Assembly (NCBI GenBank): GCA_017619735.1
Contig: JAFZRT010000029.1
Location: forward strand, 78,087-142,086
Origin: Clostridia bacterium
Lineage (GTDB): Bacteria; Bacillota; Clostridia; Christensenellales; CAG-138
Direction: 5' to 3'
DNA: 64,000 nucleotides
Position numbers and translations under genes: made by a program. Shown here piece after piece: positions 5,127-64,000 of this stretch (position 1 is its first letter; each line of letters starts with the position of its first letter). The notes beneath the pieces were generated by a model. That model worked only from the letters and a program-made list of their open reading frames with translations, did not search any database and was not told the DNA's origin.

Positions 5127-6521
5127 TTATACTATGTATTTGTTCAGGTCTTCAGTCGTCTTTGACATATTAAGATGCGACTCGACATAAGCCCTGTCGA
5201 TTACGACGTCTATCATAGGGTGCTCGCCGCTCGCATTGAAGGAGATATCGTCGAGCAGGTTTTCGATTATCGTGTGCAGCCGCCTTGCGCCGATGTTCTC
5301 GCTGGTCTCGTTTGCGGCAAAAGCGGCTTCCGCGATCGCGTGCTTCGCGCCGTCGTCGAAGGACAGCCGCACGTTGTCGGTCAGGAGCAGCGCTTCATAC
5401 TGCTTCGTAACGGCGTTTTCGGGCTGGGTGAGTATCCTTTCGTAATCCTCGACTGTCAGCGCGTTGAGCTTTACCCTTATGGGGAAACGGCCCTGCAGCT
5501 CGGGGATCAGGTCGCTGACCTTGGAGACATGGAATGCGCCCGCCGCGATAAAGAGCATGTAATCCGTCTTTACGGGTCCGTATTTAGTATTGACGGTGCT
5601 TCCCTCGACTATCGGGAGTATATCGCGCTGCACGCCCTCGCGGGAGACGTCGGCCCCCACTGTGTTGCCCGCGGCCGCTATCTTGTCTATCTCGTCTATA
5701 AAGATTATCCCGTCCTGCTCGGCGCGCTCTATCGCGCGGTCGATCACCTCGTCCATGTCGATAAGCTTGTCGGATTCTTCGGCAACGAGTATTCTCCTCG
5801 CCTCGGAGACGGGGACCTTCCTCTGTTTTTTCTTCTTGGGGAGCATGCCGCCGAACATCTCGTTGATATTGAGATCGATGCCCATAGCCAGCATGGCGTC
5901 GTTCCCGCTGTTGGATTCGGTCACTTCAACGGTGACTATCCTGTCCTCGAGCTCGCCGCGGCGGAGAGCTTCGAGAGTCGTGCGGCGCTTCTCCGCGCGA
6001 CGGGTCTTCTCCTCCTCGCTGATCTCCGGTTCGGAGGGTTCGGCCTTGGGTCCCAAAAGCATCTGCAGCCCGAAAAGGTTTGCGGCCTTGCTCTGCTTGC
6101 TCTTTGCGGAGGGGTCTACTCCGAGGAGTTCCACGAGACGCTGTTCGGCCGCGGCTTCCGCCATCATACGGACGCGCTCGTATTCGCCCTGCTTGCACAG
6201 CCTGATGGACGCTTCCACAAGGTCGCGCACCATGGAATCGACGTCCCTGCCGACGTAACCTACCTCGGTGAACTTGGTCGCCTCGACCTTGACGAAAGGC
6301 GCTTCGACGAGCTTTGCGAGACGGCGCGATATCTCGGTCTTGCCAACGCCGGTGGGTCCCATCATGATTATGTTCTTAGGGGTTATCTCCTCGCGCATTT
6401 CAAGAGGCAGACGCGAACGGCGGTACCTGTTGCGCAAAGCTATTGCGACGGAGCGCTTTGCTTCGTCCTGACCGATTATGTATCTGTCGAGCTGTTCGAC
6501 TATCTGTTTCGGAGTCAGCAT
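5127..6521 (-). CDS. hslU: ATP-dependent protease ATPase subunit HslU (ClpY)
   Basis: This 464-residue AAA+ unfoldase forms the hexameric cap of the HslV protease. Seen are Walker A GPTGVGKT (residues 55-62), the pore loop GYVGRD (88-93), the I-domain (about 110-245), Walker B IIFIDEID (272-279) and the C-terminal tail EDLNKYIV, which in the family docks into HslV. The length is normal. It starts one base after hslV ends. In Bacillus the gene is clpY/codX and is followed by codY; here a wall hydrolase follows. Confidence 0.97.
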
Positions 6522-6522
6522 A

Positions 6523-7059
6523 TCAAACCTCCTCCACCGTTACGTTGTTGTTGGTGTAAACGCAGATATCGGAAGCGATGAGTATCGCTTTTTCCGCGAT
6601 CTCCTTAGCCGGGAGATCCGTATTCTGCTTAAGCGCCCTCGCGGCGGCGAGCGCGTACATGCCGCCGGAGCCGATGGCCGCTATCCCGTCGTCGGGATAA
6701 ATGACCTCGCCCGTGCCGGACACGATCAGCAGCTCGTCCTTGTCCGCGCAGATGAGCAGCGCCTGCAGCTGACGCATGACCTTGTCGCTGCGCCAGTCCT
6801 GCGCAAGAGCAACCGCCGCGCGGGAGAGACCGCCGCCGAACTGCTCGAGCTTGCTTTCGAATCTGTCGCAGAGCGTGAAAGCGTCGGCGACCGATCCCGC
6901 AAAACCGACGACGACCTTATCGTTGTAGATCCTGCGGACCTTCTTTGCGGTATGCTTCATTATGGTATTTTCGCCGAGCGTCACCTGTCCGTCGCCCGCT
7001 ATGGCGCAGCCGGAATCGGACTTGACGGCGACTATCGTCGTACCCTTGAACTCTTCCAT
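6523..7059 (-). CDS. hslV: ATP-dependent protease peptidase subunit HslV (ClpQ)
   Basis: A 178-residue N-terminal nucleophile peptidase of the HslUV complex. The motif GTTIVAVK near the start gives a threonine nucleophile (Thr7 after removal of a short propeptide), the usual Thr type and not the Ser of Bacillus ClpQ. The core [14 protein letters not shown] and [14 protein letters not shown] are typical. I start at the ATG at 7059, preceded by AAGGAAGGA; a longer reading to 7155 would lie inside trmFO and add non-homologous residues. It is one base from the trmFO stop, so it is co-transcribed and probably coupled. Confidence 0.96.
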
Positions 7060-61304: not shown

Positions 61305-62828
61305 TTATATCCATATGTAAATATCATCGGCGAGCTTTTCCGCGGCCCTGTCGAAGCGGGACAAGACGTCCTCGCCTTCGTCGGCATATTCGGTAAAGAC
61401 CGCGTGCTTCTCCGGTTCTTCCGCGCCTTCGCCTCTGCAGCCGGCTATCAGCGCAACAGGAACGCCCGCCTTTTCGGCATGTTTGATTATTTCACCCACG
61501 GCTTTCCCTTGCATGCTCGTGCTGTCGATCCTGCCTTCGCCCGTCACGACAAGCACCGCGTGACGCAGTTTCCTGTCGAAGTCGGCAACGTCGAGTATCG
61601 CTTCCGAGCCGCACATGTACCTTGCTCCGAAAACCGCCATGAGCATCGCGCCCATACCGCCGGCGGCGCCCGCGCCGGGCTCGGAGCAAACGTTCCTGCC
61701 GGCATGGTCGTTAAGAAGCTTCTCAATATTGAGCATGCCGTTTTCGAGCTTCAGGAGCGTTTCTGCGGCCGCTCCCTTCTGAGGGCCGAACGTATATGTC
61801 GCGCCGTTAACTCCTGTCAGAGGGTTGCTGACGTCGCACACGGCGGTGAAACGGGCCTCGCGCACAAGCTTGCCTACGTTCTCGGCGTCAATGAAAGCGA
61901 TGCGGTCCATTTCACCCGCTTCGGAGATCTCGTTTCCGTCTGCGTCGAGGAAGCGTACGCCGAGAGCGCGCGCCATACCAATACCGCAGTCGTTCGTTGC
62001 GGATCCGCCGAGACATACATAGATGTCCTTCAAGCCCTCGTTCACGGCACGCAGTATGAGTTCGCCGGTCCCGAAGCTTGACGCCTTCAAGGGATCGAGT
62101 TCATAATCGGCGCAAAGCGCGAGACCGCTCGCAAGGGCGGATTCGATAATGGCTTTCGTGCCGTCCGCAACGAGATAATCGGCCTTAATGCTGTCGCCGT
62201 AAGGCGCGGTCACGGCGACGGTTCTGCGCTGAGTGATTATGCCGCTCTCGATTGCTTCAAGCGTACCGTCGCCTCCGTCGGCGGCGGGAACGGGCACGAG
62301 CGCGGTTTCCGGCAGTTTTTTCCTCAGCGCCGCGGACAGCCGTCTTACGGCTTCCTTGGCGGGGACAGTGCCCTTGAAGCTGTTAGGAGCAAGTATAATG
62401 GTGTTCTCATAATAGGCGATACGCTCGACGGGCTTTTCCAGGAATACCAATTCACGGGAGCCGCCCTCCGTCCTTCCGTTCTTTGACACGGCGCCGAAAT
62501 ACTCCATATCCGTAAAGGCGCGGATAACGTTATTCTGCACATAGGGATCGCGCGCTTCGAGCAGCGAATGCAGTTTCCCGTCGCCGTCGATCTTCGAATA
62601 GAGACGGCGCATCTTTCCGAGCTTGCCGTTCATGAAAACGACAGTATAAACGCCCTCGCTGTCGCGCGGATCGATCTTATTCACTCCTCCGAGGATATGA
62701 AGGCCCTCGACGTCCTTAGCGGACAGCGAAGAAGTAAGCTCCGAAAGGACGAGCTCCTTGAAATCTTCGCCGACGCTGTCCTTGAGCGAATCGAATCTTA
62801 TTCCCAATGCGAACTTCAAAATGTCCAT
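61305..62828 (-). CDS. Glycerate 2-kinase with an unrecognised 140-residue N-terminal domain
   Basis: A 507-residue protein. Residues from about 142 form a complete GlxK/GarK-family kinase (usual length about 370-380): ILAPNSFKGTVPAKEA, PAADGGDGTLEAI, GGSATNDCGIGMARALGV, GAAGGMGAML and GEGRIDSTSMQGKAVGEI. The N-terminal 140 residues (DILKFALGIRFDSLKDSVGE, then SRELVFLEKPVERIAYYEN) match no family that I know. The kinase converts glycerate to 2-phosphoglycerate with ATP. ATG 62828 shares its A with the Clp-like gene stop; TTG codons just upstream are also in frame. Confidence 0.85.
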   Translation of the reverse strand: MDILKFALGIRFDSLKDSVGEDFKELVLSELTSSLSAKDVEGLHILGGVNKIDPRDSEGVYTVVFMNGKLGKMRRLYSKIDGDGKLHSLLEARDPYVQNNVIRAFTDMEYFGAVSKNGRTEGGSRELVFLEKPVERIAYYENTIILAPNSFKGTVPAKEAVRRLSAALRKKLPETALVPVPAADGGDGTLEAIESGIITQRRTVAVTAPYGDSIKADYLVADGTKAIIESALASGLALCADYELDPLKASSFGTGELILRAVNEGLKDIYVCLGGSATNDCGIGMARALGVRFLDADGNEISEAGEMDRIAFIDAENVGKLVREARFTAVCDVSNPLTGVNGATYTFGPQKGAAAETLLKLENGMLNIEKLLNDHAGRNVCSEPGAGAAGGMGAMLMAVFGARYMCGSEAILDVADFDRKLRHAVLVVTGEGRIDSTSMQGKAVGEIIKHAEKAGVPVALIAGCRGEGAEEPEKHAVFTEYADEGEDVLSRFDRAAEKLADDIYIWI

Positions 62829-64000
62829 CAACAATCGACCTTTCTAATGTTGTAAACGCCATACGTGACGCCGCATTCCGCTTTGTCTCCCGGGGCTATT
62901 TCGCCGGAGAGCAGCGCGCGGCTGACGGCATCCTCCGCGGTGACGGATACGACCCGCTGAATCTGCGCGGCAGAACCGCGGCATGCGGTCACTATCCCGT
63001 CGATAACGGAAGGCGTGAACTCGATATCGATATTCTTTCGCTTTATTCGGTCCGTAAGATCGCCGATGCTCTTCTGCACAATCCTGCGAAGGTCGGCGTC
63101 CCGCAGTTTCCCGAAGGGAACGACCGAATCGACAAGCGACAGCAGCGACGAAGGAAGCTTTCTCGAAACGGAACGCATTACCCTGTCGCCGCCCTGCAAG
63201 CTCTCAGACGTAAAGCCGAGCGCATAGCCTTCGTCGTCGGTATCGACAAGAAGCACAACAACGCTGTTTCTGAAGCTGACGGGACGTCCCTTTCCGTCCT
63301 CGATCATGCCTTTGCCGAGTATCTCTGCAAAGAGCGAATGAACTGCGGGCGAGCAGAGATCCGCGGAAATCAATTCGACAACGGAAACGGGGTGCAGTCT
63401 TAAATGCTCCGTAAGCACGCCGCCTTTTTCAGCGTCCTTATAACCCGCCGGAGCACCTGTGAGGCGCATCACGGCCGCCTCGTCGGTGAGATCCATGCCG
63501 TTAAGCCGAACGGCCGAATTATTGAAAGCGGTCTCGGTCAATCGGCTGACAAGCGTATCTTTACCCGAATGGGACGGGCCGGCAAACACGAACGAGGCGA
63601 AGGGCTTCTGCGGATCGCCCAACCCCGCCGCGGATCTTCTCAATACGGCGGCGGTCAGTGCGATCGCGTCGTCCTGGCCGAACACGGCAAAGCCGAGGCG
63701 GTCTTCAAGCCCGTTCAGCCGTTCGGCGCCGTATGAAGCGTCAAGGCCTGTCCTTTCGCTTATTACTGCGGAAATATCCTCCGCTGTTACGTGCGGCTGC
63801 GATCCCGAAACGCCCTCGAGCTTCTTTTCCTCCTCGCGGAGCTTTTCCGCAAGCTCATAGTCGCCGAGATCAGCCGCCGCCTCGATCCTGCGCCTTACGG
63901 AATACAGGTTTTCCTTGTCGGCGTTATCGAGCCTCGCCCTGGCGCATGCCTCGTCCATGAGGTCTATCGCTTTATCGGGCAGACGTCTGTCGGCAATGAA
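62828..64000 (-). CDS. ClpC/ClpB-type AAA+ protein with degenerate second ATPase domain, 5' end outside window
   Basis: The frame is open at the right edge; 390 residues of the C-terminal part are visible. FIADRRLPDKAIDLMDEACA closes the first ATPase domain as in ClpC/ClpB. A short helical linker follows (LAEKLREEEKKLE, a UVR-like segment), then a full D2 domain that aligns along its length with ClpB D2. The D2 catalytic residues are lost: Walker A GPTGVGKT is GPSHSGKD; Walker B VILLDEVEKAH is VVELISADLCS; the pore-loop GYVGYEEGG is GYKDAEKGG; sensor 1 TSN is lost (VLLVDTD); the arginine finger NRIDE is SLVDS; sensor 2 GAR is changed (GSAAQ). D2 should not hydrolyse ATP. It overlaps the glycerate kinase gene. 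Confidence 0.85.
   Translation of the reverse strand, partial: FIADRRLPDKAIDLMDEACARARLDNADKENLYSVRRRIEAAADLGDYELAEKLREEEKKLEGVSGSQPHVTAEDISAVISERTGLDASYGAERLNGLEDRLGFAVFGQDDAIALTAAVLRRSAAGLGDPQKPFASFVFAGPSHSGKDTLVSRLTETAFNNSAVRLNGMDLTDEAAVMRLTGAPAGYKDAEKGGVLTEHLRLHPVSVVELISADLCSPAVHSLFAEILGKGMIEDGKGRPVSFRNSVVVLLVDTDDEGYALGFTSESLQGGDRVMRSVSRKLPSSLLSLVDSVVPFGKLRDADLRRIVQKSIGDLTDRIKRKNIDIEFTPSVIDGIVTACRGSAAQIQRVVSVTAEDAVSRALLSGEIAPGDKAECGVTYGVYNIRKVDC

Follow-up and report, generated by a model that had tools for sequence, protein, structure and literature searches.

The ClpC unfoldase encoded at one end of a 64,000-nucleotide stretch of DNA from a Clostridia bacterium (contig JAFZRT010000029.1; the whole stretch is referred to as the window) has lost most of the catalytic residues of its second ATPase domain, D2, while retaining an intact first ATPase domain, D1, and the loop that docks ClpC onto ClpP. 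The same degenerate domain, hereafter pseudo-D2, is found in 19 species belonging to three genera. We consider it likely that D1 is the only motor of a ClpC-ClpP protease formed by these proteins, and that the D2 ring is passive, serving for docking and as a conduit.

The clpC open reading frame runs off the end of the window, and the source contig, part of a 1.86 Mb draft genome, goes on beyond it. On the extended contig the gene reaches C35:143274, 1,188 bp past the window end. The full-length gene lies on the minus strand and is 786 codons long, with its final 390 residues encoded in the window. The gene, the part of it that encodes the M-domain, and its neighbor are positioned in the window as follows:

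62828..64000, minus strand: 3' part of clpC, residues 397-786 of 786
63779..63952, minus strand: shortened M-domain, residues 413-470, with the Tyr/Phe (F436-like) and Arg (R443-like) tip residues kept
61305..62834, minus strand: glycerate kinase with an N-terminal domain of 130-140 aa, a conserved neighbor of clpC

The domain order of the protein is N-domain, intact D1 ATPase, short M-domain, and D2 with an AAA+ fold; Pfam matches to Clp_N, AAA, AAA lid, AAA_2 and ClpB-type D2-small occur in that order, all above their cut-offs. All NCBIfam Clp matches score below the cut-offs curated for them, and the matches listed include no ClpC model. The best sequence matches in the PDB are the ClpC proteins of S. 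aureus and B. subtilis (6em8, 9rai, 3j3s; E 1.9e-161). The genome encodes no other ClpC, and its other large Clp protein is one ClpB. If ClpB is defined by a long M-domain and the absence of a ClpP loop, the protein is not a ClpB: it has a short M-domain and the tripeptide LGF, and a separate canonical ClpB is encoded.

Extension of the contig brought D1 into view, with its Walker A, Walker B and arginine residues intact (GEPGVGKS, IDEIHT, IGATT and ALERRF). All 19 pseudo-D2 species retain an intact Walker A and Walker B in D1, together with both of its arginines and its pore loop. The D1 Walker A of one congener, G004 (L169), reads GEPGVSKS, a change of Gly to Ser. Judged by sequence, the protein possesses the competent D1 of a ClpC and lacks a competent D2, and we have filed it as a variant lineage derived from ClpC, unlike the standard two-motor ClpC. 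The initial annotation had proposed a non-hydrolysing role; this would apply to D2, whereas for the protein as a whole a non-hydrolysing scaffold role is unlikely because D1 is completely intact in the 19 species.

The elements of D2, all on the minus strand, are:

62879..63733, minus strand: pseudo-D2 AAA+ module, residues 486-770, delimited by Pfam AAA_2 and ClpB_D2-small matches above cut-offs, the AlphaFold2 model and superposition on ClpB D2
63554..63580, minus strand: degenerate Walker A GPSHSGKDT, residues 537-545, with Lys543 kept and Thr544 changed to Asp
63419..63445, minus strand: D2 pore loop 1, GYKDAEKGG in place of GYVGYEEGG, residues 582-590, with Tyr583 kept
63365..63382, minus strand: lost Walker B, residues 603-608, with Asp607-Glu608 replaced by Ile-Ser
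63242..63244, minus strand: sensor 1, residue 649, Asn changed to Asp (Asp in 11/12 congeners)
63134..63136, minus strand: lost arginine finger, residue 685, now Leu
62966..62968, minus strand: lost sensor 2 arginine, residue 741, now Ala

It had been claimed from the window alone that every catalytic position of D2 is lost within an intact fold. This is correct for Thr544, Asp607-Glu608, Asn649, the finger at 685 and Arg741, but not for Lys543, which is kept; likewise, the pore tyrosine loop is altered from GYVGYEE to GYKDAEK as described, but its tyrosine is still present. The fold itself is supported by the Pfam matches and by modeling. The AlphaFold2 model of ClpC has a mean pLDDT of 86.6; most of D2 lies around 90, with lower values at the docking loop. 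The modeled D2 can be superposed on crystal structures of ClpB D2 at 2.0-2.4 Å over about 290 residues. Given the high pLDDT and the close superposition, the D2 scaffold is predicted to be intact.

In a set of 76 unrelated ClpC proteins from many phyla, the seven catalytic columns of D2 are preserved apart from one T to S change, and they are likewise intact in 19/19 canonical ClpC proteins of the same family, so the pattern of loss in pseudo-D2 is far from chance. Among the 19 pseudo-D2 proteins, the Walker B Glu is altered in 18 and the two Walker B acids occur together in none; an Arg aligns at the arginine finger in 2/19, the sensor 1 Asn is found in 1/19 and the sensor 2 Arg in 1/19. The D2 pore Tyr is kept in 16/19.

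The family survey covered 103 draft genomes in 26 genera, to which we gave working labels; g1 is the genus of this genome. Pseudo-D2 ClpC is present in g1, g4 and g13. Within g1, a ClpC with the same set of losses is encoded by 12 of 13 congeners, and the 13th genome is only 53% complete. D2 is intact in genera g5, g8, g9, g11, g12, g14, g15, g16, g21, g22 and g25, and in g17 as far as its truncated sequences extend; g20 encodes a ClpE-like protein whose D2 motifs are intact. A pseudo-D2 ClpC is also carried by a public metagenomic record from goat abomasum (L035, JAFPXD010000057.1). A search of 396 genomes of the order with a pseudo-D2 profile, which would miss independent pseudo-D2 origins with other sequences, gave matches of at least 339 bits only in g1, g4 and g13. 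The next-best match scored 305 bits, and the 21 next-best loci checked all encode a canonical D2. In a sample of 391 genomes of the class, the only one to pass the profile threshold was this genome. A phylogenetic tree was built from the N-domain and D1, and is therefore independent of D2. It nests the pseudo-D2 proteins among the canonical ClpC proteins of the family and unites g1, g4 and g13 in one clade (UFBoot 100) next to canonical g5. The pseudo-D2 sequence state thus has a single origin.

Sequencing or assembly artefact was rejected as an explanation, since the losses are found in 19 genomes and in JAFPXD010000057.1, and the ClpB proteins of the same genomes keep all D2 motifs. Reading frames are open and full-length in all 19 species, with no stops in any copy. 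Codon models gave omega values for D1 and D2, respectively, of 0.075 and 0.161 in g1 and of 0.031 and 0.151 in g13; the canonical relatives gave 0.028 and 0.055. With dS close to saturation these values are rough, yet they are far from neutral, and pairwise NG86 values agree with them. D2 evolves faster than D1, with an omega about twice as high in g1, as in canonical ClpC, and about five times as high in g13. With D2 omega at 0.15-0.16, nowhere near 1, and no stops, a pseudogene was rejected. These sequence comparisons support purifying selection on D2 and not random decay, in agreement with the initial annotation, which had predicted a pseudo-ATPase retained by selection; the recurrence of the residue losses, which it had proposed as a check, was found in the 19 species, with a D2 omega far below 1 in g1 and g13.

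Selection could nevertheless be relaxing on the way to gene loss, with ClpC becoming dispensable, D2 decaying first and little or no function left. D2 is far less conserved than D1 in g1 (identity 0.48 for the large and 0.36 for the small D2 subdomain, versus 0.75 for D1). ClpC is missing from 5/11 g13 genomes (in the G028-G036 / L144-L158 range), where ClpB and ClpP stay, and from many g23 and g24 genomes. It may have been lost repeatedly in this lineage, and its absence from several close relatives indicates that it is dispensable somewhere within it. Decay toward loss is nonetheless unlikely for the proteins that remain: besides the open frames and the low D2 omega, the D1 catalytic residues and the docking Gly-Phe are each kept in 19/19, 11 derived D2 positions, among them Asp for Asn at sensor 1 and Asp for Gly in the pore, are fixed in at least 11/12 congeners, and the clade is deep, spanning three genera.

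The part of D2 that has been spared most strictly, apart from its scaffold, is the ClpP-docking loop:

63212..63220, minus strand: ClpP-docking tripeptide LGF, residues 657-659, with Gly-Phe invariant in 19/19 pseudo-D2 ClpC proteins

An xGF tripeptide docks ClpC into ClpP and is used to tell ClpC from ClpB (PMC10149685). There are 110 D2 columns invariant in the canonical relatives, and the 19 pseudo-D2 proteins all keep 18 of these: Gly658, Phe659 and 16 scaffold positions, most of which are Gly or Pro. Gly658 and Phe659 are the sole invariant columns between positions 648 and 680, in a hypervariable loop. The first residue of the tripeptide is smaller in 4/6 g13 proteins, which have AGF. 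The invariance of Gly-Phe amid the loss of the motor suggests that selection stripped D2 of its motor parts and kept the hook. Co-degeneration of ClpP was rejected, as ClpP is canonical, with its catalytic residues and N-terminal hairpin present; there is one copy in this genome and usually one in pseudo-D2 genomes. ClpX and ClpB of this genome are also canonical, and clpX adjoins clpP. The assembly of G006 has the clpC gene and neither clpP nor clpX, which a single gap would explain given that the two genes are adjacent.

Retention of the docking residues with the main motor gone, together with the availability of ClpX as an alternative partner for ClpP, could also be accounted for by a regulator that performs no degradation of its own, docking ClpP through Gly-Phe to block it, gate it or share it with ClpX, or by a stand-alone D1 chaperone. 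We regard this as quite unlikely, because the D1 motor and its pore loop, the N-domain, and the D2 pore Tyr in 16/19 proteins are threading parts that would be superfluous in a plug.

In the D1-driven ClpC-ClpP protease that we favor, the protein would assemble into rings in which ATP binding and hydrolysis take place in D1, and D1 also does the gripping and threading of the substrate chain. D2 would have lost hydrolysis and, in g1, probably ATP binding too. As a passive lower ring it would provide a guided channel and a platform from which the Gly-Phe loops dock into ClpP, where the substrate would be degraded.

The sequences of g13 point to how this state may have arisen. Walker A is kept as GKT (GKS in one) in 6/6 g13 proteins, Walker B reads DD, DN or EN, with the Asp mostly kept and Asn or Asp standing in for the Glu, and just one aligned sequence still has the arginine finger. 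On these sequence states g13 is an intermediate stage of D2 loss. In g1, the Walker A Thr and the Walker B Asp are each replaced in 11/12 proteins, which makes Mg-ATP coordination by the g1 D2 unlikely. Since g13 retains Walker A and g1 is also without the Thr and the Walker B Asp, we infer that the loss of ATP hydrolysis preceded that of nucleotide binding. It is fairly probable, on balance, that D2 was converted stepwise in this order into an inert docking ring, leaving D1 alone to drive unfolding and degradation. The Walker motifs of g13 would also suit a D2 that binds ATP as a structural ligand without hydrolysis, as does the D1 ring of Pex1/Pex6, which is inactive yet ATP-bound (PMC10518020). 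This is very unlikely as a general explanation given the replacements in g1, and fits g13 better. That another ClpC or ClpB supplies the missing D2 active sites in mixed rings is scarcely credible: a ClpB with intact D2 is present in the same genomes, but none of the pseudo-D2 genomes has a second ClpC, the loss is uniform across the clade, and to our knowledge no ClpB-ClpC mixed ring has been described.

Regulation may differ from that of other ClpC proteins, as the M-domain is shortened and no MecA was found. In S. aureus ClpC, the repressed head-to-head resting state depends on residues F436 and R443 (PMC5699869). The M-domain is wholly absent from two congeners, G006 and G008 (L173, L172), whose proteins are 738 aa long, and by sequence this should remove the head-to-head resting state; the remaining g1 proteins keep a Tyr or Phe and the Arg equivalent to these two residues. 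A search for MecA found none in 13 congeners and recovered MecA in the controls B. subtilis and L. lactis, and MecA was accordingly rejected as the adaptor.

The only partner visible in the window had been taken to be the glycerate kinase, whose start codon (ATG, 62826-62828) shares bases with the stop codon of clpC (TGATG). Its N-terminal domain (window positions 62400-62828, minus strand) has no Pfam match. It is predicted to adopt an alpha/beta fold (pLDDT 91) with weak ferredoxin/ACT-like matches only (best Z 6.2), and on this model is perhaps a small-molecule sensing domain. The domain is fused to glycerate kinase in 62/103 genomes and 23/26 genera of the family, and is sometimes stand-alone. 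Among the genomes examined, linkage of the kinase to clpC is confined to g1, g4, g13 and canonical g16: the pair is kept at every pseudo-D2 clpC checked, yet also at the canonical clpC of g16. A dedicated kinase partner was thus rejected, since the fused kinase occurs throughout the family and, in most genera, lies away from clpC. Elsewhere in the window (approximately 5175-6527, minus strand), an HslU-like AAA+ open reading frame of 470 aa, conserved in congeners, gives a weak match to the ClpX profile, and by sequence another ATP-dependent protease may be present.

A search of literature outside subscription journals turned up no paper on a ClpC with a dead D2, and within that scope the suggestion of an undescribed Clp variant holds. 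The protein shares with Firmicutes ClpC the N-domain, D1, short M-domain, D2 fold and xGF loop, and is orthologous to it by the N-domain and D1 tree; it differs in the loss of the D2 catalytic residues, the further shortening of the M-domain, and the lack of a detected MecA in the genus. ClpI of Actinomycetota is also a non-standard ClpC-like unfoldase class, with the opposite pattern of variation: its Walker motifs are described as strongly conserved, and the M-domain and LGF loop vary (PMC10149685). Pex1/Pex6 is likewise a double-ring AAA+ machine in which one dead ring is still structurally relevant, its D1 being catalytically dead but ATP-holding and its D2 active (PMC10518020). The dead ring there is D1, whereas here it is D2, in a bacterial protein that docks ClpP. 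In NSF, a eukaryotic classic AAA protein, D1 drives and D2 mainly assembles the ring and binds ATP. An active D1 and a structural D2 would be common to both, although NSF works without ClpP and the homology extends no further than AAA+.

Most arguments on the need of two-ring Clp unfoldases for two motors, and on the task of each ring, rest on point mutants of ClpA, ClpB and ClpC. The pseudo-D2 clade is a natural experiment on this need, with the D2 ATPase gone and the ClpP hook kept in 19 species, and with the g13 intermediates and the intact sister genera as a comparison set. Three questions can be tested with it: whether a D1 motor is sufficient for degradation by ClpP, whether a dead ring can retain allosteric coupling to ClpP, and through what sequence of losses a motor ring is inactivated. 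The main motor of ClpA is its D2 ring, with D1 in an auxiliary and back-up role (PMC9663308). ClpA and pseudo-D2 ClpC are both two-ring unfoldases that dock on ClpP, but in the latter D1 is the only possible motor; by analogy with ClpA, whose principal motor is D2, a machine powered by D1 only may be weak. If the D1-driven reading is true, the division of labor in pseudo-D2 ClpC is the inverse of that in ClpA.
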